NCBI GenBank assembly: GCA_963281255.1
Contig: OY725494.1
Span: 1,625,934-1,689,933 of the forward strand
Direction of reading: 5' to 3'
Length of the DNA stretch: 64,000 bases
DNA from: Aphrocallistes beatrix
Taxonomy: Eukaryota > Porifera > Hexactinellida > Sceptrulophora > Aphrocallistidae
The notes below the pieces were generated by a model. It was not told the origin of the DNA. It worked only from the letters and a program-made list of their open reading frames with translations, and did no database searches. The position numbers and the translations under genes are program-made. This document shows positions 2,775-57,311 of the stretch, piece after piece (positions within the stretch are counted from its first letter, which is position 1; each line of letters starts with the position of its first letter).

Positions 2775-2825
2775 CATATAATGAAAAGTCGAGTGCGCAT
2801 TCTCACTGAAAAAGGTCGAGTGCGC
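2775..2825 (+). repeat. Left terminal inverted repeat of the KDZ-like transposon
   Basis: Begins CATATAATGAAAAGTCGAG. It contains GTCGAGTGCGC twice in direct orientation about 30 bp apart, a layout typical of transposase binding sites. It pairs with 10556-10606. Confidence 0.85.
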
Positions 2826-3147
2826 TTTGTTAGCTCTTACTTTAGACAACATAGCAACCTATATGAGCCATTAAAATCTTAACTATCATTTTAATTATTA
2901 GCCATTTGACTAGATTCAAAAGACCACAAAAGAAATGCTGAAATTGTACTATATTACAAGAACAAATTGCTTCGAGTGAGTATCTACCACAAATAATTTC
3001 AACTTCCCAGACTGTTACCAGTGTAATTCTTGATTCACTACTAGGGGTATATATATACACATCCTGGCACAAGTATTAGCTTATTGAAGCTATCACAAAT
3101 TGTGACAATTAATTACATTTTATAAATTTTTTTGATATACAAGTAGT
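2826..3147 (+). other. Subterminal and upstream region of the transposase gene
   Basis: AT-rich leader between the left terminal repeat and the first transposase codon. It presumably holds the promoter, but no defined element could be picked out. Confidence 0.4.
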
Positions 3148-6100
3148 ATGTCCGACGAGATAGCTTATAGAATTGTCAACATACCCAATTCAAAGAAGAG
3201 ACAACGGAAAGATGAATTCGAAGAAACACATATCTCCCATCTAACCTTAAGTTCAGAGACGAGTAACGTACATGTTTTCGATGAATCTCTAACCAGAATT
3301 GAAATCAATCAGCAAACAGGTAAATATACTATGATGGATAAAGCATTTTGTTTTGTGTTAGATTTTGTTCCGTTGTTAATAGAATATTGCAAGCATATAA
3401 TTTCCAAAGTAATGTAGGGTGGGTATATACTGGCAAATAAATTTATTATGTTTAACATAACATATTGAGATATTTTGGGGAAATGTTGTCTTTTTAATTC
3501 AATTTAATATACACTAGTAATATATTCATCTTAGAGTAAGCTCCGCCGTTCTGGTTAGCTCCGTTCTGGTTAAATATGTAATGCTTAATTAATGCTCTTT
3601 TATAATCATAGGCACCAATCATGGTTAGGACTTATCCCAATCTGATGATGAAGAAATATCAACTTTACCAATATCAACCTCTGACCAATATACAGCCCTC
3701 TTGATTGTAGAATCTAAGGCATGGCTATTGTGTGAGACAGTATTCGCAGTTGTATCAGATTTCGAATTGAAGACAGGTATGTGTTCTATTCACATTCTGC
3801 GTAATTTGAAATCGAAATGTTATTTAATGAGCTCCGCATTTGTAAATTTTAGAAAAAGTCAAACTAACGAAAAGAAAAGAAAAGATCGGTCTACCATCTG
3901 ATAGCACTATTTGGGCGGTATTTATTTTGATTTTTGTGAGTTAACCCCCTAAAGTTTAGAGTTAATAAAAATTGAAAAATTATTGGAGGTTTTTTACTTT
4001 TACCAATTACCAATTAGTTTTTAACTTATTTGATATGTTTTTAATGATATGGACCTTAACATTGTTTTGGCACCTTTGGAGATTATATAACACAAAGATT
4101 TAAAAGAATGGGCAAAAAAAATCCAAACAAAATAGCTCTATAAGGGAGTTCATTTATATAATACTCGGGAAATCGCAAGTTTGATCTCAGTTATTTAGCG
4201 ATCACTGGGTCAGAAATAAAATTCTGATCGTTTCAAAAAAAAAGTTTGTTCGGATCAGACCATTTGTTCTTGAGATATCGCTTATTATAGGTAAAGTTCG
4301 GGCATAATATCTCTCTATGGTCCCGAAAGAGGGGGATATCATATCTTAAAAACTATTGAAGATATATAATCCATTATATTCTGAACTAAAAGGATATATG
4401 CGAAAATATATAGGTTCCTCGAACATTCCTTTGTCAAAAAATAAATAATTCTCGACTTATCATTGATTTAATTGCAATACAAATTCTATGGAGAACTTTG
4501 AATATATTAGAAAATGGCGAATCTAATCATTAATTCTGTGTCCAAATGTGGTTATTATGCTAAATAATGAATACAATTGTCGTTAATAGTGTGTACAGAA
4601 AAATTGGAGAACTTTTGATAATTATTTTGAAAGTTCTGGCCTTGGACCTCGCAGATTCGGTCAAAAACCCCCATTTAAGGTCCAAAAAGAGATATCTCTG
4701 TAAATATATGTCGAAACTCTTAGTTCTCACTTCCTAATATACTTTTTATAAGTGTACATATATTATTCTATGATAATAATTGCACTACACCCTATGGAGT
4801 GTTAAGTTTTAGATTTATGTCATATGATGACGTAGCATTTTTCGAAAATCCTAACTTGGAAAATAAAAGTCGTAGACTTTCGCTCTAACTTCCTAATATA
4901 CTTTCAGAAGCTATTTAACCATTCTAAACTGATAGATTATACTTCGTATTGCCAGGAATATGAATTATTATTCACAATTATCCCAAACATTCGGGGTAGG
5001 GGCCTCAAGGAAATTTGTGGATTTTCAGGGTACTCTTGCTATTTTTTGTAAATATTTGGTTCAAATATACCTAAATCAGCAGTATAAATGATGATAAATG
5101 TCTGTGAATGCTTTTGTTCATTAATTCATTCTACATTCTTCTTAACATTTAAACTCAAAAGCTCTATATCTCGGGACTTTAATATTTCAAAATTGACCGT
5201 CTTTACAGAATTTTAACTCAAAATTGGTTTGAGATAGAGGTTTGAAAATTTCAAGAGTTGTTCCATATTATTTGCCGATGAAAGTAGGACCACCATTTTT
5301 TCGATATCTTCTAACTTGGTGATTTTATCGCTGATTTCCCCAAAAAACAGACATTTTTGGCCGTTCTTTGTCCCTTTTTTTTCGGAAACCGATAATATTT
5401 AAAATTTTTGTCATTTTAACTTTCTTTTGGTCCTATGAAGTTGCAAATATGGTAGACTATCTATGATTCGATTTTGGAAGCATTTGATTCCTTGTATGTC
5501 CTAAACAATTCCTTAAGTGCCCGAAGTTCTACCATTAAGAAGTGCTAGCGGAAAACGAAAAAAACAGAATTTGAGACACTGTATCTCAAAAACTAGAAAT
5601 GAGAATCAAAAACGGTTTGGAATGTGCCAGTATTTCTTGATGGAGATACCTCCCCACGCTTAACATCTCTTATAGCTCTACTTTCATCGTATGCTGTAAG
5701 CTAAATCATATGTTTTTTCGAGGGTGGTATCCTTAATTAACGAGTATCGAATTCTATGCCAACCCAAATATGCCAATATTTCTACGTTTTTTACTCTCTC
5801 TTTGTCAACAATATTTCTAATTGATAATATGGATTTTCATATCTTCTACAAGGAGGAAATGAAGTGGTTCTGTGATATATGTTTGGGTAAGTGTAGTAAG
5901 TCAGCCACTATGAAAAACATTTTACCTGAAAACAATTTCAACGAACTAACAGCAGATCAGAAATAAATTCAATACCCAGTAGTATCCAATATATCAATAC
6001 CTGTCTCATTTGATGAAAGCATGTCAAATATCTATGAAGAGCAACAACTATGTAACAACCTGAATTTACCGATAGAACTACTTCCGGAAAAGGAACTTTG

Positions 6101-8071
6101 TGAATATAGTAGTAACTATAAATTTAGCAAAGAGAAGATTTCATTGGAGAGAAGAGGGCTCATTCTATATACAGCAAAGACTGTGGTTGAGCTAGCTGAA
6201 CATAAAGGTAAGATTATAACCAAATACTTGCTCCACAACCTGCTCATAGTTCATGTTATTATATATTTGTTCAGTTTATAGTTCTATATGCGAAGGTACT
6301 TGCAAGTGTAGAGCATATTTTGATGGCAGTTCAAGACTCTTGCTGAACATTAACAACAGATACTTCTTACATTATGACTTGCTCTATGAGTATAGCGAAT
6401 TTATGACTTCATCTAGAAACACACTACACGGTTATCTAAGATAAGAATCGCTCCCGAATTACTAGAGAACTCGGGTAGTGCGTGCTTGCATAGGAGACAG
6501 AAAAATTTACGAACTAACCGAGTGTAATAATATAATATCATTATTTAGTACGTAGTACATGAATCTAATTGAATTTTTTCTAGTGCAAATAATAATGTTA
6601 TGAAGAGGCTAGGAAGGAAAACTAAATACCTGTATCACATTCTTAAACACGAGTGGAATGCATACTTAAGGATGGTCAGAATTGACTACAAAGCGAATTT
6701 CACTTGTCCTATATGTAAGGATAACCCAGAAGTAGTAATAATGGATGGTGTAACACTGGGAACTCTGAAACATATCCCTGAAATCTCTCATTCGAAGGAT
6801 AAAGAACAACATTTTAATCTCATCCCAACTAGTGATCGCGTATTCATCTCTAATTCTGCGACAAGAAAAAAGTTAAAAGACTATAGTTTGATGGGTTTGA
6901 CGAAAACCATTTTTTTTGAAATGTTGGATTTTATCAGTAATAAGGAGTTCGTGGACTATATATTGTATAGTAGCGTGGAAACAGACGGATGGAGGAAAAT
7001 TCATGACGACTTCCCTGGCGTAAGTAATCTTATAAGTTTACTAAGCTACCCTTCACCATTATGTGGAATCTTTCAGTGCTCAATACTCACTAAAAGGGAG
7101 CGAGAAATACTAGTATTATTGTCTAAGGGGGGATATATTCCTAAAAATGAACTTCAACAAATATTTCTTGAAAGCAATTCCATGAAAGTTATTCAATTCA
7201 CTTCCAGCCAGAGTAAATGATGATGGACGAATGGCGTTACATTAAATCGTAGCTCCCCTTTTAACAGTGATTCTAACAAAAATTGATCAGCTATTCAAGA
7301 GACCTACTCGTCAGCCTGTAGTGTATCCAGTTCCTGACAATGATTACTTCATGTATTTTCCTGCATTTTCCACCACTTACTACAAGTAAGTTATTTTATT
7401 ACTTATTGGTATATGATATCTCATATTAAGGTACTATTACTTGTACATATTAAATTCAAGGATGCTTTTGCATTTATTTAAATTTTTTAATAGAATACCT
7501 ATTTATGAGCAGTCAAAAAAAGCTCAATCAAGTATGAAATGTTCCAAAATATACCCAAAGTACAACATATTTTCTCCAGGGATGCTTGTAATGGCGTGCA
7601 AACATAAAATTTTCTATGGATTGGAGATCCTAAGAGAACGGGAATCTACTGAAGTAGTCTACAATATGCTGATTAGTATTTTCAAGCAACCACCAAATAT
7701 TATTATCCATGACAACGCGTGTAATTTGCATACAACGTGTATAATGAGGTAAGGTTGATACTATATTTAACATATACTATGTATTGATATTGTATGCACG
7801 TATATTCCAATACTGAATGGCTATCCATATTCTAGGGATCCTGCACTTTTTCGGGGACACAACCTTTTTAGTGGATAGATTTCATTATTCGAACCATAAA
7901 TGCAGTACATCATAATCCATGAAATCTACTCAAACTGAAGAAATCAAGCGTATCAACTCACAAGCTTGTGAACAAATATTCTCAGTTTTAAGGCAAATCT
8001 CAACTCAAATTGTATATATGAGAATTGTAAATGTTTTCTACACAACACAAGATACTTTTTGGTTAATCTAA
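3148..8071 (+). pseudogene. KDZ-like transposase, multi-exon and broken
   Basis: Exon 1 (3148-3319; basic KKRQRK near its start) and exon 2 (3612-3776) both end ACAG/GT. Later exons end at 5886 and 6207, then 6275-about 6430, 6584-7385, 7494-7748 and 7836-8071. Donors and acceptors are canonical and the junctions keep phase (6207/6275, 7385/7494, 7748/7836). Motifs in order: cysteine pair FTCPICKDNPEVV, then MDGVTLG (candidate first acidic residue), HDNACNLH, VDRFHYSNHKC and SQACEQ, the D / D-x-x-C / H-x-x-x-H / E layout known from KDZ transposases. AATAAA lies at 8095. Damage: TAG in exon 2, frameshifts near 6430, 7190 and 7855, and stops near 7246 and 7918. A 1.7-kb repeat fills the exon 2-3 gap. 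Family call is by motif only; the 5' exons are less certain. Confidence 0.62.
3930..5700. repeat. Rep-F repeat within the transposase intron
   Basis: Non-coding AT-rich block. Its first 550 bp or so match 57770-58330 (shared phrases include TTAACTTATTTGAT and GACTTATCATTGA). Internal duplication is visible: CTTCCTAATATACTTT occurs near 4730 and 4890. Its right edge (CGAGGGTGGTATCCTTAATTA at about 5720) recurs near 55515. The class is unknown and the boundaries are approximate. Confidence 0.5.
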
Positions 8072-8182
8072 ATGAACAAATTATGGAAAATATGAATAAA
8101 ACTAATGAAAATTATTAAACTAAATTTGAAATTATTGTTTGACTGGTGGGCATATTGGGTATTTAGGACGAATATTTAGGTA

Positions 8183-8625
8183 CAGTCGAACCTGCTATAA
8201 CGGCCACTCTATATAACGGTCACCTGTCTATAGCGGTCACCAATGAACAGTCCCGTCCGAAATCCCATAATATTGAACCTGTGTATAGGGGTCACCTGCT
8301 CAACGCGGCCAGCGGCCACCCGTTTGTAGTCCCTTACTGACCCTAAAACTGTCTATAACGGCCATTACCTGTCTATAACGTCCACAACTGTCTATAACGG
8401 CCATCACCTTTTCACGTTTTTATGTGTTTATTGTAGGACCTGATACGAACGATAAACAAGTTACAAGTTTCATGTAATTACTTCAAGCAATGGATTTCGA
8501 AAAACTTTATATTTACGTTGATGCCTTTGGGAGATTAAGACAATCACCTGTATATAACGGTCACCTGTGTATAACGGCCATTTTTGTCGTGTCCCTTGGG
8601 TGGCCGTTATATACAGGTTCCACTG
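8183..8625 (+). mobile_element. pogo-like MITE (443 bp) in the 3' part of the Ulp1/PHD gene
   Basis: TA duplications flank ends CAGTCGAACCTGCTATAACG and its inverted partner ending CCACTGTA. The body is built from repeated TATAACGGTCAC / TATAACGGCCA blocks facing inward. A second copy lies inverted at 41471-41875. The insertion destroys the end of the PHD finger and supplies an artificial stop codon (8607) for the protease frame. Confidence 0.85.
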
Positions 8626-10389
8626 TATTTCTTTGTCGTCATCAGGAAGGCCAACACATGGTTTGTGAAACCATCTATCACAATTTGAGCATTCGACGAA
8701 GTAGTTATAAGCAAACTGTGGCAGCCTACAAACACACCACAGTTAATGACAAATGAGGTCATGTGATGGGGGAAGTCTTCATCAGGTCGTGTGCTGGTCT
8801 TTCGAATCGTTTTAAAAGGTGTCAGGACTTCGGTTTCTATGCATTCTTTTAGATGTCTACGCATATTCGATTGGCGCCATCTAATTTTTGCTGGATCATC
8901 TCCAGAAACTAATGCAAGGCATGCTGCCGCAGCAAAGATCCCGCAATCTGCACCCCCTCGCTGTTGCTGCATTGCTGGAACATAGATTTTAGGCTTTGAC
9001 TCATTGTGAGCGTATAAAAGCGCTAGTTGTATATCGATTTCTTCACTAGTTTTTCCAGAGAAGTACGAGTCATAAAGAAATATTCCATCTGGGGTGATCC
9101 TAGAGCAGATCCAGTGCAAATTCCCGTCGTGGTGCATCTGGATGCTATTCATCGGGGCCTTAAGAAATTGTTGAATCTATAAAAGGTGATATAATTTGAT
9201 AATTAGAGATGTCTAAAGTTTACATACTGTTAAGGTATAAACACTGAGCTATACGTAATAAAATAGTCTAAATATTTACCTTCGCAAAATTTGTGTCCTG
9301 CAGGCCAAGTGTACCAGGAAAAGACATCCTTATTAGATCCTAAAAACTCGTAATGTAAAAGGTCATGTAAATTATAGATACTATAGAAATACTACTATTT
9401 ACCATGAAACTGCTTATGCAAATCCTGAGAGGAATGTGTTGGGGCTAGAAAGGAGCTTACAAAATTCGGTCTTGACAGTATCTTCGATTGCTTTGAATTT
9501 TACCCTTAGTGGGGATATAGTCTGCGCATTAGCAAGAACAGCGATGGAAGATGTTGGTGGGACGCAGTCAAGGTCAAAAGTGCTTTCGGGTTGCCTTTCA
9601 TTTTGAAATTGAGAAAGATCGGGCAAAAAAACATCATCTGTTATGTCATAGGTCTCAGATGCATCTGGCATGTCAGAGGTCTTAGATGATGAGGACAAAT
9701 ATCGTAAATGATATCACTTAGCTAGCTCACAAGGTCTTCTGATGACAGAAATATGTCTATAGGATCTGTTCTCAATGAATCTATAGGAGATCTATCTCGA
9801 ACATCCTCTTGCAATAGTGTTGCATTTTCTTGCAATAATGTTGCTCCCCCTCCAGAGGTGTACTTATTGTATGATTGGATTATCTGAATGAGGATAGAGC
9901 GTTTAAAATTTTTCTTGGTGACATTTTGGAGTGGGATGTCAGTTGGCCACCAGATCGGCTTTTTAGAAATGTTGTCCCAGAAATGTCGCGTCGTTCCTAA
10001 ATAATAAATACATATATTCATATACTTAGAGATGAATCTAAGGTGCGAGTGGAGTATTCCCACCTAAATGCTTTAAACCTACCGACAGACTTCTGAGTGA
10101 TCCAAGAAATCATCCTTCTTAGAGACATTACGTTCAATTTCTTTAGGTCACCTTTTATGCTAGCAGCCATCTCAAATTCCTGAGCCGGAATAGAAGAAGT
10201 TATATTGGGGCATGCCAAACTCTCCCACACTTCTGAAGTATGCTCGTTTATTAAATCTGTGAATAAGCTATTTCTAAATACCGATAGGCCCCCTTCCCAC
10301 TTGTAGACTACACCTACCCGCTGTCCTGTTACTTGCTTGAAGCGAGTTAATGTCCTCTGCAGCATAACTCTTGCATTCGCCATGGTCAT
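8607..10389 (-). pseudogene. Ulp1-type (C48) SUMO protease with PHD finger; accessory gene of the KDZ-like transposon
   Basis: Exon 1 (10389-10083; ATG at 10389 or 10383) encodes an N-terminal domain with GLSVFRNSLF. Exon 2 (9996-9731; the 10083/9996 junction is in phase) carries KKPIWWPTDIPLQNV. Exon 3 starts at 9680 after a 50-bp intron. Exon 4 is about 9339-9280. Exon 5 (9177 on) holds the protease: catalytic His in GNLHWICS, Asp in LYDSYF, Gln and Cys in QQQRGGADCGIF. A different frame then gives CVCRLPQ and ECSNCDRWFHKPC, a PHD finger without its last Cys pair. Ulp1 enzymes process or remove SUMO; PHD fingers read histone tails. Breaks: exon 3 runs into TAA, a frameshift separates protease and PHD, and the C-terminus is lost to a MITE. 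The exon 3/4 junction is unresolved. Confidence 0.7.
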
Positions 10390-10555
10390 TAGAGGCACAA
10401 TTATATAAAATTATTGAGAAGCTCGGAAGATATTGAAAAATACTGGGAAATGCGGAAGATACTGAAAAATACTAAGAATGCGGAATATACTTAGAAAATG
10501 TATACATATATGTAAACAAAGCTGGTGTGCCTGTTGTGCCTATAAATATGAGCAT

Positions 10556-10606
10556 GCGCACTCGACCTTTTTCAGTGTGCATGCGCACTCGACTTTTCAA
10601 TACCTC
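10556..10606 (-). repeat. Right terminal inverted repeat of the KDZ-like transposon
   Basis: Inverted partner of 2775-2825 with 6 mismatches in 51. The two GTCGAGTGCGC boxes are present in inverted orientation. Followed by the target duplication GTGTATAT at 10607-10614. Confidence 0.85.
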
Positions 10607-11121
10607 GTGTATATAGTATATATATATATTTCTGTAACGAATTGATTGAAGAAACTGCAAGGCATAGAAAGCTGATTTTTGGCATGTGAGAGTTTTTTGG
10701 CTATGGCTCTAGTAAATTCTGAGTTCAGATCAAAATGCCCACTCATCATGGAATTATGACGTCATTGTCACCTTTTTCATAATTATAAATTTCAGTTTTT
10801 CGACCATAACTCTGCCATTTTAAGTGATAGAAGGCTGAAATTTTGATAGAATGTGTATATTAATAGATCTAACATATGATGTCCTATCGCCAAAAAATGA
10901 TGATTCATCACTCTGTGATGACGTCCTCATTATGCATCAAAAATTGTAAGAATTGTCAAATTTGGTGATTTTTCGTGCGATCTCGATTATGACATTAGGA
11001 CAGACGTGTTTATAGATGTTATCTCCCATATAATTAATTAATGATGACGATAGGCGCCCAAAGGGAGCATCTGGCGGTCACAAAGTGTCCGCCAGCAGCG
11101 CATGCAAGCGAAGCTCGCTTG
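10607..11121 (+). mobile_element. Hel-A copy 3, main body downstream of the KDZ-like transposon
   Basis: Continues the Helitron interrupted at 2774: TA tract, TCTGTAACGAATTGATTGAAG, a TGACGTCA near 10758, a decayed hairpin, and a 3' end CTCGCTTG^T at 11121. Confidence 0.8.
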
Positions 11122-13067: not shown

Positions 13068-16000
13068 TCAGGAAGTTCTATGTTTCTTTGCACTCTTAAT
13101 ATCACTGTCTATAGTAGTTGGATGTGTTAGTTTCTTAAGTTTTCGAGTAGTTTCCTTTTGTCTTGATTGGGAAATGACCATATAATTGAAATTTTTGACC
13201 TTGTTTGCTATTATGCAGTTTGATCTGATGGTTAAAATTCGTTTAAGATAATCCCACCCAAAAAGATTGCAATTGGGACATTTGTTTCTCCAATGTTCGC
13301 ACTGAGCATCTTCTAGCGAAATGATAGAAAGTTCTAAAAGTGTTTTTTTGGGCGCTCCACTAGCAAATCTAATAAGCAGATCATTATCCTGCTCAATAAG
13401 TCTGAATATCTTCCAAACTAGTACCACAGCATCTAGAACAATATCAGAGTAGCGGTATCAAGAGAAATATCTGACAAACCAAAGATCACATTTGAGTAAA
13501 TATCAATATCACTTGAAGTATCGGTAGTAGTATCATCAGTTGTCGCAGAAAAGGAGCTTATAAAGTCGGACAGAGTTAAGTCATTTGACTGTCGGTAGAA
13601 AATATATTTAGGATAGTAGAGACCTTGAGTCGTCGTTCACTCTCGAGAATTTGACAATAGGAAATGTGGTAGTTGGCTCCCGACATCATTCTGTATAAAC
13701 TAAAATGATGTTCTAATGCGTCTGTTTGCAAAAAGTAAGTCAAGAAGTAAGTAAATCCACGTTCCTTTGTAAGATAGTTAACTATCCTTGGTAACGCAAG
13801 AAATGAGTGTTTGATACTAGTAAAAGTCTGAGCACTAAGTTTCACATCTTTTCCGGGAAGTGATTTCCATTTGTCTAGCCAGTCTACAATTTTAGCTAAA
13901 AAGCCAAAACGAAAGTCATTGTAGTAAAATTGTTCAGAAATATCATCATTAAGGCGGATATTCTTGTTGGGCCTGTTAACATTAAAATCTTCCAAAGCTG
14001 GTTAATCGTATCGATAAATTCTGAAGTGTGTCTTGAACTCCTGAGTATGGGATAAATTCTGAACTTTGATAGCTGAACTGGTGGATTCGCAAAACATTCT
14101 CAGAGCAAGGCTAACATTTTGACGTTCGAAAGATGTCGGCCAGCAAGCCTTTGCGATTAATGTTGGAGCAAGTTTAGCACATTTATATTGTTCTTCCCTG
14201 TATAAAAGACGAATGTCCTCGAAAGAAGCGATGTTCACCTGTTGGAAATCCTCAAAGCTAGGATACTTGAGTATTCTGTCATGGTTCTTGACGTTAAGCC
14301 AGTTATTACGAATCGATTTTAGGACATGAACAAAATCAAAAATCAAAAACAAATTACGAGTGGAATCTACCGGATGTTGTACAACAGGCTGTAGTGTGTG
14401 ATCAGAAGAAAATAATTTGAAGAGATTTACGTTGAGAGGATAGGCATCGGTACTAATTACTTGAACTGAGAGGTTACATTGCTCGACATCACTTATCACT
14501 GATTGAATAGTGGGAAACAATTTCTGGGCAGAAGAACTGCCTAATGGTAAAAGCATAGGCGTCGTAACCCACCCGGTTACCCGGCAATTGCCGGGCGGCC
14601 CAGAGTGAATGCCGGGTACTACCCGGTCTAATGCTCGGTACTACCCGGTAAATGACCGGGTACTACACAGTAAAAAGCTTAGTGCTATTATGTACTGGTA
14701 ATTGGCTGTTACTAATTCCTCATGTAGATCAAGGGTTCACGGCCCATTTGGCTGATGGTAACGCTGGATCAGCTGAAGATACGGCCCGATTAACTGACTG
14801 AACGGCCCTGGATTATTGTGGCCGGGCAGTCCAAGGGTAGGAAATAAAGTTTACGACGCCTATGGGTAAAAGTCGAACTATTGTAGACCATTTTCTGAAA
14901 AGGCTAGATACCATTATGGAGAAGACTGTCTTTGTCGGGTCATTCGGATCTAAAGAACCACCAACAATTTTTCCAGCTTTGTATGTAAGATCTGATTTCA
15001 CATGTATCTCGTCCATTTGTAAAATTACATTCTTCTCTTGAGGGGTGAAATTTGATGTTGCTTGCTTGAGATATGTCGTGAAGTTATCGTCAAGCCCAAA
15101 TGAAGAATACAGCATTTGTATTGTATTGAAATGTGGTAGAGCCAAACATTCTAGAGACTGTAGGAAATTATAACATGTTGAAGAAATGAGGTGAGCCTTG
15201 AGCGCTATAATTTGAGTGATAGTATTATATCTTCGCCTAGTCTTCTGAACACATAAATTTCGGAGCTGACAAAGTGTAAATTGAAGCGAAGGAAGAAGAT
15301 GAATATCATTGGATTTATCATCAAACTCTTCCTGTGAATGATCTTCAAGATGGGATACTGCATTCTGAATATTAGTGATAGCTTCAGCGATCATATCCTT
15401 AGGCTGGGAAATCTTTGTAGAAGAACAGGATATTGCTTCTACTAACTCTGTAAGTAGTGTTTCGATTTGTCTGACATCAGTTATGCAATTAATCCTTAAG
15501 GATATCTCTTTGGATTGAAAGTATCCACGTGCTGTCATCGTAGAATCGATGGTCAATGCGGCTTCGACCCTAATAATTCCTTCTGATTTAGATGGATAAA
15601 TGAAGTTTAGCATGTTGTCCTGTGACAACCACAGAAGCCAAGGATCCGGATAGCAAGAAGTTAATTTCTCCTTCAGATCAGAAAAACAATATACTTTAAA
15701 CTTTTTCGTTTCTATATCTTGTGTTTCGAGGCTAAGATTTCGAGCGGTGATAGATAAATCTTCTTCCTTAGATTCATGCGAAAACCGAGATGGTCCATTC
15801 GTAGAGGATAAATAGCTAGGACATCCAGGAAGTATTGAAGGTATAGCACCTTTAACTAAAATTGGCGTCTCTCGTTTGGTATACTTGATCTCCACGCCAT
15901 CATTTACTCGGATCGTATTTTCAATATCCCGTTCGTGGAAATGCATGGCACACACATAAAATACCTTGGGAGGATTACCATGCTCTCTGTGTAACGCATT

Positions 16001-16111
16001 AATCCAAGCCTGGCATAATTCTGGATCCTCTGGAGATTTAAAGACTGGTATATAAGGATCTTTGGGATAATAGTTGCTCTTACATCCAGGAGCCCAGCAT
16101 CTGTTTGGCAT
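13068..16111 (-). pseudogene. THAP-domain transposase (P-element/THAP9-like)
   Basis: The ATG at 16111 opens a THAP zinc finger in the first 85 or so residues: CWAPGC, then C and H in FYVCAMHF (C2CH spacing), the DNA-binding module of P-like transposases. About 340 residues later comes ILQMDEIHVKS, with the first catalytic Asp of the RNase H-like fold, then KIVGG. The frame is cut after IVRLLP by a 311-bp MITE (14864-14554) and resumes as LGSSSAQK at 14543. It stops at 14002, continues in another frame at 13995-13576, and the tail (CEHWRNKCPNC, LKKLTHP; 13427-13068) is again shifted with intervening stops. No terminal repeats were recognised. Confidence 0.8.
14554..14864. mobile_element. hAT-type MITE (CATAGGCGTCG family) inside the THAP transposase
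   Basis: Ends CATAGGCGTCGTAA and TTACGACGCCTATG, flanked by a perfect 8-bp duplication GGTAAAAG (14546-14553 and 14865-14872). Deleting the insert and one repeat rejoins IVRLLP to LGSSSAQK in frame. It is GC-rich (CCCGG, GCCGGG) against AT-rich surroundings. A near-identical copy lies at 52558-52852. Confidence 0.9.
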
Positions 16112-16715
16112 AATCTCGATATTAAGGCGAATAGTAAAGCTAAATAAAATTTCTAATGTGCAGGGAGAAATTAATAAGAATATTAAACAGGAATGATCAC
16201 ATGGGAAAGGAAATTGGGTAAGATGGGAACCAAAAGATAGAATATACACTATACTAAGTATAATCAGATATGCGAAATAATTACTACTTAATTAATTAAA
16301 AGAAATACTGAATGAATCGTAAAGACAATACTATTATATACTGTAGGGATTATGGTAATGTTATTAATTATTTGTAGTCATCTAAATTTGTAAACACTAT
16401 TTAAGGTTGGGTATTATTTAGTATAACTATTATTGTGAACCCATAATATGTAGCAGATAAAAATAGCATATTGTCGAATGAAATACTCAATAACTTATAG
16501 CTAATCCTTGGTCACAATTTTTCTTTGAGCTGTTGGGCCAGAGTATAGTAGGCTATGGTTATGTATATATTTTCACACATTTATACACATATTTTGAGCA
16601 TTTGACGAATTTTGAAAATTATGCTAGAGACTAGCTTCCAACGGTTGACATGGGGCTTTAAGGGGTGGAGATTTCAGATCGATAATATAAGTTTTTTGTT
16701 CCCTTTTATTTGCAA
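16112..16715. other. Upstream of the THAP gene; Hel-B middle fragment near its end
   Basis: AT-rich. From about 16600 it contains CTTCCAACGGTTGACATG, shared with Hel-B at 46690. No gene recognised. Confidence 0.45.
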
Positions 16716-22418: not shown

Positions 22419-22673
22419 TTGAATTTTGGTTTAGCTATTTCGCGAGTGACGAAATCTAACGCGAGTCAACACCTGCAGAATGCTCTAGAATTGTTCTCCA
22501 AAGTCCCAGGAGAAGCTATAGGGGCAAATTTCACTTGGAACAGGCAAGTAAGTGTCTTCAGAGAAACTTTTAAGGAGTTCGCATCGAAACACAAAGAGGC
22601 TGTGTGTCAGGTCTTGGTATCTTCAGTTCACCGCTCGGGGAAAGTAAACGAAACCTTGACCAAACCTGATTAG
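22419..22673 (+). pseudogene. Orphan exon related to the N-terminal domain of the Ulp1/PHD protein
   Basis: An open frame follows a good acceptor (TTTGGTTTAG/CT) and ends at TGA 22673. Its product shares the pattern L-x-x-x-L-x-x-F-x-x-V-x-G, then W, then SVFR, then H-x-x-x-V with exon 1 of the Ulp1/PHD gene at 10389-10083 (compare QVSVFRETFKEF with GLSVFRNSLFTDL). This suggests a second, decayed copy of the same transposon gene, or a wider family using this domain. No neighbouring exons were recognised. The function of the domain is unknown. Confidence 0.45.
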
Positions 22674-47731: not shown

Positions 47732-48719
47732 ATTATAATGAGGCAAGCAGAGTTTTTAAATCATGAAAACAAGCAAACATTTTCATTATTTCAACTCATT
47801 TTTGGATCACTTAGTCAGATATGGAACCATGTATATTCTTTTGTAAAAATTGAAATTTAAGTTGACTGAGTTTACATATTTTATGTCTAAATTGTCATTA
47901 ATATTACACTTTTTTTAGTTTTTACATCATATCAAATGAAATTTCGACAGTTCACGATCTTAATATGCCAAGGAGTATGTAAGTAACCTTTTCAGTAATC
48001 ATTAAATTCGAATACATCAATTTAGTGCGATAGGAATCTTATCATTTCCAATAGATATCTCAAACCACTTACAGTAGATAATGACATGTACATACTAGAT
48101 TACTTGCATTTATGAAACAGATAGATCTACTCGATTCTTGCAGTGGTAAACGGATGGATCTACTCGATTCTTGCAGTGTTGGAACAGACACTCATTGATC
48201 ATCGATATTTTATGTTTACTTCTATATTCTATTAATCAATCGATTGTAATCATGGAAAGACAAATTAATAAAGTATAACTTATTCATTAAATTGTTAAAT
48301 TAACTAATACGTACGACATTTTTAATATCCCGCCGTACCTCTTTTCGAAAGGGTGTGCCGCGCTTGGGGAGCATATACAGCAAAATTGTCAGAATTTTAA
48401 AATTGAAATTTAGGTTCGGAGAAGTGGCTGATAAATATTAGATCTAAATTTTAACATCAGCACATCAGAAATTAACAAGGTAAATAAAACCCATTTGGTA
48501 CTAAAATCGAGCTGGAAAACCTAAGAGAATATAATAATGAGGTTTTGCGAGCAAAATTGTGTTGCGATACATTGGTTTAAGAGTGATACCCATTACATCG
48601 CTAATACCATTTATACATATAGTAAACCTCAATGATGAGGTAGAGAGTAGGATCTTGATAAACTTTGCACATTATAGATTTGAAAAGAATATCCATACCA
48701 CTTCTAAGAATTAATTTAC
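47732..48719. other. Donor-proximal part of the intron
   Basis: No gene. Two direct copies of GATCTACTCGATTCTTGCAG at about 48125 and 48156; a GC-rich word CCGCCGTACC near 48331. Confidence 0.45.
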
Positions 48720-49601
48720 CTCAATTGTTGAATATACTTTCCTGAACGAAAGCCAATTGCATTTATCACTGTAAATATTATCTTGATAAACTTCATCTGC
48801 CAATAGCAAAATATCATTTACATGGCAAAATTTTAAAAGTTCCACTTGTTCATTAAATTTTAAACATTGACCAGTAGGATTGCCTGGGTTAATCACAACA
48901 ATTGCTCGAGGTATACAAGTCCCTTTACATTTCTCTAAAATCATAGAAATATCTTGTATATCTAAACCCCATTCTGAATTTTGATCAAGGTAATATGGAA
49001 TGGACTTAATCCCATAATAAGTTAGCGTAGCAGAGTAAAGAGGATATTGAGGGATAGGGATTAGAATACCAGCATTAACGTTGCCCTCATTCTTAGCGAG
49101 GCATGATATGATAACACTTATGATTTTACTAGCACCATCGCTAAGAAAAATATTATTAAAATCAACTTCACAATTATCTCGTGATTTTATAAAATTTGCA
49201 ACCTCTTTCCTAACTAGCTCAAAACCTAAAGAATGTGAATAACCACCAAAACTGGCAATAGAATTAAGAAATATTCGCGCACGTTCGATAACATCATTAG
49301 GAAATATCTGTTTGACATCAATATCTTCGATGAGATCTGGATAACAGCAAAGCGACAATAACTGACGACAGAAAGTAATAGGTTTTTGACCGAGATTCTG
49401 AGGATTACCAATGTTCAAAAAGATAATCTCATTAAAGGGCCAGGAATTATCGTGTTTAAGTTCGTTAGATATATCCAATGCACGATTAAGAATCGGTCCT
49501 CTGACAGCATACTCTAAATTTAAAACATTTGGATTGAATGAGGAAACGGAAAAGGGTTTTGGTTGATTTGTTGTGAGAATTGGAATAGAAGAGTTAGCCA
49601 T
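48720..49601 (-). CDS. GPT: Alanine aminotransferase, exon 1 (N-terminal 294 residues)
   Basis: ATG at 49601 starts MANSSIPILTTNQPKPFSVS; the family block NLEYAVRGPILNRALDI follows by residue 28, as in animal ALT, with no obvious mitochondrial presequence, so cytosolic location is likely. Substrate and cofactor blocks: PITFCRQLLSLCCYPDLI, SFGGYSHSLGFELVRKEV, LIPIPQYPLYSATL, INPGNPTGQ (PLP aspartate-aminotransferase fold) and LLLADEVYQDNIYS, whose Asp and Tyr contact PLP. Exon ends at GAG/GTAAAT in phase 0 and continues at 21575. All blocks intact. No promoter element could be assigned in the AT-rich DNA upstream. Confidence 0.95.
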
Positions 49602-50084
49602 AGAAAATTTAGCAAATAACTAAACTCAATCAAAGAAATAACTGAATTAGGGATTAGTGATGAACTATTTCCAATAAGAGAACAAGATAAATTTACAATT
49701 GACGGATTCTTAAGGATTTTATCGTATGCTAAATGGGGAAATTATAATGCATAAAATAAAACATCACTGCATAGATCAAATTAAGCTGATTAATCCAAAA
49801 TTTCGTACAATTTCACTGATAAATTATTTACTGCAAACAACAGTTGTCATTAATTAATTGTACAGGGCAGACCAGTGGTCCGGGTGTTTAGCTTTACCGG
49901 ACCACTTTTTAAAAGTGGCTCGGTTGGATCGTTTAAACAGGACGAATAATCAAAGGTGATTCCGATTTGTCCAGTTTTTACTGGAATACACTGGATCTTT
50001 AACAATGCAGGTGAACAGCAGAGGAGGGTATTGACTGAACATTTTTTGAATGAGCTGAATCGATCAATACATTTTGAAAAATTA
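49602..50084. other. 5' flank of the alanine aminotransferase gene
   Basis: About 480 bp of AT-rich DNA before the FB-C repeat. It presumably contains the promoter, but no TATA box or site was convincing. Confidence 0.4.
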
Positions 50085-50739: not shown

Positions 50740-51290
50740 TCCTTACTATTAAAACTCGATTAATGTTTGTGTGTGTATATACGAGTATATATATATATGT
50801 AACGAATTGATTGAAGAAACTGCCAGGCGCAGAAAGCTGATTTTTGGCATGTGAGAGTTTTTTGGCTATGGCTCCATGTAAGTTATGAGCTCAGACGAAA
50901 ATATCGACTCATCATGGAATTATGACGTCATTGTCACATTTTTAAAAGTTAAACAATACAGTTATTCGAGCATAACTCGGTCATTATATGAGATAGAAGG
51001 CTGAAATTTTAATAGAATCTGTATACTAACATACCTCACATATAATGCAACTATCATCAAAAAATGATGACTCATCACTTTGTTATAATGTCATCATTAC
51101 TCATCAAAATTTTAAAATTGATAAATTTGGTAATTTTTCGTGCGATATAGATTATAACAGTAGGACAGACGTATTTAGAGATGTTATCTACCTTATAATT
51201 AACCAATCTGACCTCAGGCGACCGTAGGGAGCCTCCGACGGATACAAAGTGTCCGCCAGCCGCACAGCGCAAGCAAGCGAAGCGTGCTTG
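50740..51290 (+). mobile_element. Hel-A Helitron with a paralogous empty site
   Basis: TCCTTACTATT at 50740, GCGTGCTTG at 51290. Left flank ATATTTGCA and right flank TGTTATTTAATATTCC are contiguous, as TTTGCA^TGTTATTTAAT, at 53201-53216, so this copy inserted between A and T without duplication. TGACGTCA is near 50922; TGACTCA near 51067. Confidence 0.93.
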
Positions 51291-55810: not shown

Positions 55811-56466
55811 CAGGGTGACCAATAAGTTCTGACCCATAATTTAAAACTTACCATTATGTAAGATATGCGAGTATTCACTAGTTTCTATTGGAATAAAGCG
55901 TGATTAGAGCATTCTATTATGATTCTGTTTCACTTTTACTGCATATTAGATTGAAATTTAAAAAATTTACCATGGATCGAGAAAGGGCAGCAATAATTGA
56001 ATTATTTTCTAATGGAAAAAGGCCAGGGGAGATTTTAAAAATGCTCCAGATTTGTAAATCAAGGAGGAAAATTGTTTATCGCACTATCCAACGTTACAAT
56101 AAGACTGGGGACATAAAAGATATGCCAAGAAGCGGTCAACCCAAGTCAGTAAGAACTCCAAGGCTGAAGAAAATTGTGATGGATAAAATACGGCGAAATC
56201 CTCAACAATCCATTCGGAAGATGGCCTCCGAGCTCAAGGTTTCACTTGGATCGATGCAAAACCTTGTGAGAAATGACTTGCACTTCCGATCTTTTAAAAG
56301 AAGGACAGTTCATTTCCTTTCAGAGAGAATTATAGAAAAGCGACTGACCAGAAGCAAGGGCCTGCTTTCCCGGCTCGCAACTCAACCTGTTGACCAGATC
56401 GTATTTTCTGACGAGAAATTATTCACCATAGAGGAAGCGACCAACAAGCAGAATGATCGTATAAAC
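55811..56466 (+). pseudogene. 5' half of a Tc1/mariner-superfamily element with truncated transposase
   Basis: TA then the terminus CAGGGTGACCAATAAGTTCT. ATG 55972 opens MDRERAAIIELFSNGKRPGE, two helix-turn-helix regions (KIVYRTIQRYNKTGDIKD; VSLGSMQNLVRN) and a GQPKSVRTPR box. The catalytic domain begins QIVFSDEKLFTIEEA (first Asp) and ends at KQNDRIN, 56465. After this the sequence belongs to another transposon on the opposite strand. The second and third catalytic residues and the 3' end are missing. Confidence 0.85.
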
Positions 56467-57311
56467 TGTTTTTCTATCCTCAAGCGCCACAGCTGCGACA
56501 AACCCACTGGATTTGAAAAAAATTGCTCACATTTGCTTCCCTACAGATTTCGCCCTTCGTACTTTTGTTGGAGGTGGAGCATCTTTTTCCACCCACTCCT
56601 TCGATTGTTGTTTTGTTTCCGGATCATAATGGTATATCCATGTTTCATCCCTTGTAAGAATATCTGAAACAGCCCTTGAAGTTCCATTATCAAATCTTTT
56701 GAGCATAATTTTGCAAAAGTCAACTCGGGCCGATTTTTGCTCTAAAGTAAAAAAATGGGGAATCCAGCAGGCATACAACTTTCGTAGACAAAGTTCTTTA
56801 TGTATAATGACATTAATAGTTCCCGATGAGAGGCCAGTTTCATGCTCTATCTGAGCGTATGTAACATGAGAATCCTGGATCACTAGTTCCAGTTCTTCAT
56901 CCACATTTTGTTCATTGTGAGAAACACTCGGTCTCCCTGCACGAGGAGCATCTTCTAGAAAAAAGTTCCCATGAGTAAATTCTCTGCACCATCGCTCAAC
57001 TATACTCAAAGAAGGAGCAACATTTGGGAAATGTTCCTGTAAAGTTTCATGGATCTCCTGCCTCGTCTTCTGCATTTTGAATAAAATCAAAATCATTGCA
57101 CGAAAATCACGTCTTGTGAAATCTGAGGATGATGTAAGCAAGTTAGAAGCCATGCAGACTAACATGTAAAATATTTCTGAAAGTATGAAAGATAAATGAA
57201 TTCAATTTTCAATGTACACTAACAGCCGCAAAATGAAACGAATTAGCAATAAATCTTTCTTCTAGATTAATGGTTTCATAGCAAACGTCAAAACTTTTCG
57301 AGTGCCTTACG
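56467..57311 (-). pseudogene. 5' half of a mariner element with truncated transposase
   Basis: Terminus CGTAAGGCACTCGAAAAGTT (complement) next to TA at 57312. ATG 57165 begins MLVCMASNLLTSSSDF; the helix-turn-helix includes SIVERWCREFTHGNFF; ILTRDETWIYHYDPET holds the first Asp. One TGA (56529-56527) interrupts, then AIFFKSSGFVAAVALEDRKT continues to the junction near 56467. The part with the second and third Asp is missing. It meets the plus-strand transposase tail to tail. Confidence 0.88.

Follow-up and report, generated by a model that had tools for sequence, protein, structure and literature searches.

The locus described here raises the question of why a transposon should carry a gene for a Ulp1-type protease beside its transposase gene, and of how the ends of such an element are recognised. 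The element occupied positions 2775 to 10606 (7832 bp) of a stretch of 64,000 nt from Aphrocallistes beatrix (contig OY725494.1, positions 1,625,934 to 1,689,933; the whole stretch is called the window), and genome searches covered 100.5 Mb in 28 contigs. It is interpreted as a two-gene cut-and-paste transposon of the KDZ (Kyakuja-Dileera-Zisupton) kind, in which end recognition is probably delegated, at least in part, to a second protein that joins an NRF1-type region, a Ulp1 domain and a PHD finger. The probability of this interpretation, which rests on sequence comparison, is put at about 0.7.

The limits of the element were exactly those of the initial annotation, the figure of which for the inverted ends was reproduced: 45 of 51 bases paired between the left terminal inverted repeat (2775 to 2825, plus strand; a CATAT-type end with two decayed GTCGAGTGCGCATGC units) and the right one (10549 to 10606, minus strand; a GAGGT-type end containing TGCGCATGCTCA and TGCGCATGCACA), with a 94% match over the innermost 47 bp. 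The flanking duplication, GTGTATAT, was an exact match of 8 bp between positions 2767 to 2774 and 10607 to 10614. Insertion into a repeat, also proposed earlier, was supported by the joined flanks, which matched uninterrupted copies of a repeat of about 540 bp elsewhere in the window (85% to 50740 to 51079, one of many copies). The sister copy L060 (C2:4854900-4862000; 5895 bp) carried its own exact target duplication, CAAAAAAA, and had exons 79 to 97% identical to those of the window copy, which was broken in both genes and was longer mostly before the first transposase exon. The left end had 15 matches in the genome; among the four loci read outside full copies, one was another copy of the same family (L002), one was a gene-less copy of 280 bp with both ends (L005), and two were short related copies (L007 and L008). 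The two ends enclosing both genes were found in the window copy, L060, L062, C18:2303000 and C2:2026000, the last without a matching target duplication. Across the lettered families of related elements, the duplication was exact over 8 bp in eight of ten gene-bearing elements with both ends read (the window copy and families A, B, C, D, E, I and J, with C scored with its end shifted by one base, and D compared between L084 and L072); 7 of 8 bases matched in family F, and none was present in family K. Repeats of CTATAACGGCCA lay in the window at 8189 to 8620, between the 3' ends of both genes, and a repeat of the same kind flanked the element at C18:2303000.

Two convergent spliced genes were present between the ends, as the initial annotation had stated: a transposase gene on the plus strand and a gene with Ulp1 and PHD domains on the minus strand. 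In the plus-strand gene, exon T1 (5967 to 6209, limits approximate) had tblastn matches in other copies. Exon T2 (6600 to 7019) contained the first catalytic D (VVIMDG) and was 97% identical to L060 and 41 to 46% identical to L061-L064; the frame enclosing it had 47 matches in the genome. Exon T3 (7494 to 7751) contained the D-x-x-C motif (HDNAC), and exons T4/T5 (7847 to 8068) contained H-x-x-x-H (FHYSNH) and E (NSQACE), with a frame break before them, between the D-x-x-C and H-x-x-x-H motifs, and a TAA inside, within the KDZ domain. This D / D-x-x-C / H-x-x-x-H / E layout, read directly in exons T2 to T5, is taken by us, as it was in the initial annotation, to define KDZ transposases. Joined exons matched PF18758 above the cut-off (26.6 bits) in L060 (35.1) and L063 (37.2), and below it in L061 (20.6). 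Scanned exon by exon, PF18758 had six matches in the genome, none above the cut-off; the transposase pieces of the window scanned separately had no KDZ match in Pfam, and the one upstream piece scanned (5967 to 6281) had no recognised domain. From its motifs and joined-exon matches the plus-strand gene is a KDZ transposase gene, and the element a KDZ transposon.

The second gene had been described as encoding a Ulp1-type protease with a PHD finger. Both domains were found, and the description had missed the start of the gene, which is an NRF1-type region by homology; the order on the minus strand was N1, N2, a central segment that matched no known domain, Ulp1 and PHD. Exon N1 (10083 to 10394, limits approximate) corresponded to the dimerisation part and the start of the DNA-binding domain, and exon N2 (9722 to 9997; KKPIWWPTDIPLQNV) to part of the DNA-binding domain (PF10491). 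In a search confined to the host NRF1 locus, exon N2 matched over 20 residues (E = 2.9e-5); N1 alone matched neither Pfam nor that locus. Separate exons gave a weak hint of PF10491 (17.7 bits), and spliced N1N2 exceeded the cut-off (23.5) in all four proteins given (25.6 to 35.4 bits; window 25.6). Compared with solved structures, a profile of nine copies (A1) matched two distinct sequences of the Protein Data Bank (PDB) at E ≤ 1, both of them NRF1 (4e-11 and 1.3e-9); A1 positions 35 to 133 of 173 aligned with human residues about 144 to 246 of 54 to 284, in a numbering that we derived from the profile alignment. The host NRF1 gene itself, at C1:8494049, matched PF10491 over positions 2 to 212 of 213 (E = 1.3e-47), and its best solved relative was NRF1 8k4l (E = 1.1e-35). 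In human NRF1, three residues read the bases of the site: R206 for the central G and T, N242 for the outermost G and R244 for those in between (PMC10810270). The aligned residue was R206 in 9 of 9 rows of A1 and N242 in 8 of 9. Six equal-scoring NRF1-type matches (L010-L015) were considered as another transposon and rejected, being family B of the same kind of element. A search of viral_contigs with A1 led nowhere. A further fragment of an N1 exon lay in the window at 22446 to 22616 on the plus strand (35% identity over 58 residues, E = 8.9e-5).

Downstream of N2, and likewise on the minus strand, the middle segment M (9417 to 9713) was 89% identical to L060 and had no Pfam match, and U1 (9283 to 9330), a small exon of the same Ulp1 gene, was 88% identical to L060. 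The Ulp1-type cysteine protease exon (8743 to 9176, lower limit approximate) matched PF02902 weakly (12.5 bits), below the cut-off (20.7 bits) exceeded in two of the three families given (L063 and L052), and profile A2 matched the Ulp1-like SUMO protease 6dg4 (E = 2.6e-5). His, Asp, Gln and Cys are catalytic in Ulp1/SENP proteases of family C48; in the A2 alignment His, Gln and Cys were invariant (6 of 6) and Asp was present in 5 of 6. The domain is a predicted SUMO protease of the C48 type. A search of NCBIfam gave nothing useful. The PHD finger (8623 to 8736) exceeded the PF00628 cut-off of 24 in the window (31.5 bits) and in all three family proteins given, and its closest solved relatives were PHF2, PHF8 and BPTF. 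In the window copy it was out of frame with Ulp1; a single open frame spanned both domains in families B, C, D, F and I, as well as in L044, L052 and L054, but in none of the window copy, J and K. In a comparison with PHD fingers that read H3K4me3, Y, M and W, at positions that we take to be those of the PHF2 aromatic cage, were kept in family C and not in family B. The Ulp1 near family E (L020; C12:3691408-3691941) was very divergent (30 to 34%), and the protease domain of this family was perhaps exchanged.

The ends of the elements consisted of tandem arrays of units of about 22 bp, each with a CATG-centred palindrome. In L060, units with exact TGCGCATGCGCA, the NRF1 site, were present in both ends, and intact GCGCATGCGC units numbered four in one end and three in the other. 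The palindrome was GCGCATGCGC in families A, F, I and G (in one end only in G, the other end of which was not found), GAGCATGCTC in B, CACATGTG in C, GATCATGATC in D, AAGCATGCTT in E, CCGCATGCGG in J (one copy at one end, two at the opposite one), and, in the one end read, TTCGCATGCGAA in H, where it occurred once. The same perfect 10-bp palindrome was present at both ends in seven of the nine families with both ends read, and, for each family, any common palindrome was found in 0 to 3 of 1000 pairs of ends resampled to first order rather than shuffled exactly. Genome-wide, pairs of GCGCATGCGC lying 15 to 40 bp apart were found in 148 places and the reversed control pattern in none, with a period of 21 to 23 bp in 50 of the 50 pairs listed. 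The outermost bases were CATAT.. at one end (CATGA.. in F, CTTAT.. in D) and (G)AGGT.. or GAGCT.. at the other. From these arrays we infer that the GCGCATGCGC-type end units are putative binding sites of the NRF1-type protein.

For a transposase to bind its own terminal repeats is common, and the KDZ transposase might in the same way bind the palindromes, with the NRF1-type region serving elsewhere, e.g., in the choice of targets near host promoters. The upstream transposase piece without a recognised domain is compatible with such binding. In families A, F and G, however, the palindrome was exactly the site of NRF1, the only solved homologue of the NRF1-type region, and the CATG centre was common to the families other than K; transposase binding of the palindromes is considered quite improbable. 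As the chief alternative, somewhat less improbable and still unlikely, it is conceivable that the NRF1-type protein acts only as a transcriptional regulator or anti-silencing factor and that the KDZ transposase alone recognises the ends. The arrays beside the second gene had a promoter-like position, about 90 to 800 bp upstream of N1; NRF1 itself is a promoter factor (PMC10810270); and the TGCGCATGCGCA families may also be read by host NRF1. The arrays stood at the transposase-side end too, however, and the gene-less L005 had NRF1-type sites at both of its ends; both observations fit a role in end recognition. Host NRF1 by itself does not account for the palindromes of families B, C, D, E and J, which differ from the NRF1 consensus.

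End recognition shared with the second protein is most simply read as a division of labour, in which the KDZ transposase would be responsible for cutting and an NRF1-type dimer would read the palindrome arrays of the two ends. From the gene pair, the domain homologies, the palindromes arrayed at both ends, the family-specific sites and the 8-bp duplications, all taken from sequence, we infer that the second protein binds the arrays and is required for transposition, and candidate targets of its protease and PHD finger are proposed on the same basis. As a dimer, the second protein would bind CATG-centred palindromes spaced by about 22 bp, a period of two helical turns that would align the bound dimers along a single face of the double helix. 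Bound in this manner, it would pair the ends and recruit the KDZ transposase. The fused Ulp1 domain may strip SUMO off proteins located at these ends, e.g., silencing factors or the transposase itself, and the PHD finger may contact the tails of histone H3 at the donor or target site. The initial annotation had proposed that the protease might let the element act on SUMO-marked chromatin or process its own transposase.

Linkage of protease and transposase in a single mobile unit, the main proposal of the initial annotation, was supported by most of the check named there. Co-occurrence was counted from matches at E ≤ 0.001 merged within 1.5 kb, and the counts are lower bounds, as the genome search scores its best candidates only. 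A convergent Ulp1 lay within 6 kb in 31 of 44 transposase-exon loci, and a nearby Ulp1 in non-convergent geometry in none of the 44 (chance expectation about 0.002 per locus). Ulp1 was present downstream in 38 of 61 NRF1-type loci. Both partners were found for 28 of 75 Ulp1 loci and neither for 34, among which are many weak or fragmentary matches and perhaps other Ulp1 genes. Among the best 30 of 69 Ulp1 matches, with 1.5-kb flanks, 27 had a transposase exon facing Ulp1 (T1 only in L037), and L052, L055 and L059 had none within those flanks. The same exon order and convergent arrangement were found in five long loci (L060-L064). Divergence of Ulp1 was correlated with that of transposase exon T2 (r = 0.66; 0 of 5000 permutations; 11 families). 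The transposase and Ulp1 gene pair is an old unit. The idea of a second gene that was picked up a single time and travels along without a role could draw on the copies lacking it, which included C18:1311630 of the family of the window, and on the loss of the Ulp1 Asp in F, K and L044. It is opposed by the three-domain gene facing the transposase in L061-L064, where the exons except the short T4 and T5 were 28 to 63% identical to those of the window, and by the conservation of the Ulp1 catalytic residues in A2, and is held to be very improbable.

Several observations weigh against end recognition by the second protein of an old two-gene unit. Gene-less ends exist, and 13 of the 44 transposase-exon loci had no Ulp1 match within 6 kb, which, taken word for word, is part of what the initial annotation had named as refuting the unit; L085, the only one of those 13 loci with its partner side read, was truncated, and gene-less ends and loci without Ulp1 are read as non-autonomous or decayed copies. 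The correlation of N1 distances with those of the transposase was weaker than that of Ulp1, and weak without close copies (r = 0.28 for T2; 0.15, not significant, for T3; 0.51 for T5). The Ulp1 Asp losses just given count here too. The NRF1 match was partial, the first part of N1 being similar by eye only, and because part of the region is left uncovered, confidence was slightly lowered. The third base-reading residue, R244, was kept in 1 of 9 rows of A1, and outside A1 position 242 was C in J and L022/L052, K in L035 and T in L082. The ends of family C had just an 8-bp core in common. Family K (C2:2026000-2038500; L070, L064 and L071) had both genes, the NRF1-type one with R206, and its ends consisted of CGACAGTCG units with no CATG palindrome and, as noted, no matching target duplication. 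A prediction written beforehand for 14 further loci, six of which were read, placed palindromes upstream of N1 and linked residue 242 to the fifth base of the half-site. Palindromes were perfect in four of the six; L080 (upstream of L035) had an imperfect CATG tandem and L081 had no palindrome. The rule for residue 242, which had been fitted by eye and post hoc to ten families (C in one half-site only), agreed in two of the four readable new loci, both near-copies of families already used, and disagreed in two. The strict code of N at 242 for C at the fifth half-site base thus failed its prospective test and was rejected.

One DNA-binding module and one site may be common to the elements and to NRF1, an essential animal regulator, because one derives from the other. 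In a bolder form, NRF1 would be a domesticated KDZ end-binding protein and its genomic site an old transposon end, a derivation that is doubtful, yet conceivable. The question of the origin of NRF1 is raised in either form; if the derivation were true, the living elements would show an NRF1-type pair of protein and site that is still diversifying.

Elsewhere in the window, an open frame at 14813 to 16291 on the minus strand started with what we take to be a THAP-like zinc finger and may encode a transposase of the P-element type, the C-terminal part of which may lie in two more frames downstream on the minus strand (13068 to 14001). Two overlapping opposite frames (55897 to 56667, plus strand; 56527 to 57201, minus strand) resembled transposases of the mariner/Tc1 type, and an open frame at 48711 to 49619 (minus strand) resembled an aminotransferase.

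No description of KDZ end recognition was present in the literature passages covered, and a second protein with matching arrays would be a direct, testable answer to it. With its several divergent families, this one genome supplies natural pairs of protein and site for how the NRF1 fold reads DNA, and predicted SUMO removal and histone reading come together in a single transposon protein, which may work at the ends of its own element. No description of an NRF1-type region in a transposon with matching end arrays was found in the open-licence literature, a scope outside which the founding KDZ and Zisupton papers and Repbase lie. Those papers are reportedly Bohne 2012 for Zisupton and Iyer 2014 for KDZ. 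By word search of the passages covered, PMC12730594 had no mention of Ulp1, protease or PHD and PMC9297572 none of Ulp1, protease or SUMO (NRF1 was not looked for in either), and PMC12062965 had none of NRF1, Ulp1 or PHD. Novelty of the NRF1-type, Ulp1 and PHD combination with a KDZ transposase is weakly claimed.

The element has in common with Zisupton/KDZ transposons the KDZ domain PF18758, spliced genes and inverted ends, and differs in its NRF1-type-Ulp1-PHD second gene and in end arrays of CATG palindromes. According to PMC12730594, Zisupton target duplications are of 8 bp and KDZ elements carry other genes, such as TET/JBP. A Ulp1 domain with a PHD finger in a transposon is already known: Ginger1 transposons carry a Ulp1 domain, and Ginger1-9_HM carries Ulp1 and PHD (PMC2836005). 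There, Ulp1 and PHD lie C-terminal to an integrase-like transposase, whereas here they are encoded by a gene of their own, which starts with an NRF1-type region and accompanies the gene of a KDZ transposase. Mutator-like elements, mentioned in the same paper, are DNA transposons with Ulp1 genes and have a transposase of a different superfamily from KDZ. NRF1, EWG and P3A2 have a related dimerisation and DNA-binding region, and their site, GCGCATGCGC, is identical for some families (PMC10810270). These proteins are host regulators, whereas the mobile element joins such a region to Ulp1 and PHD in one protein, and its sites vary by family. In En/Spm, where we know of no SUMO protease or PHD finger in TNPA, this second protein binds repeated subterminal motifs and another protein is the transposase; the proteins are unrelated to those described here, and the working is analogous.

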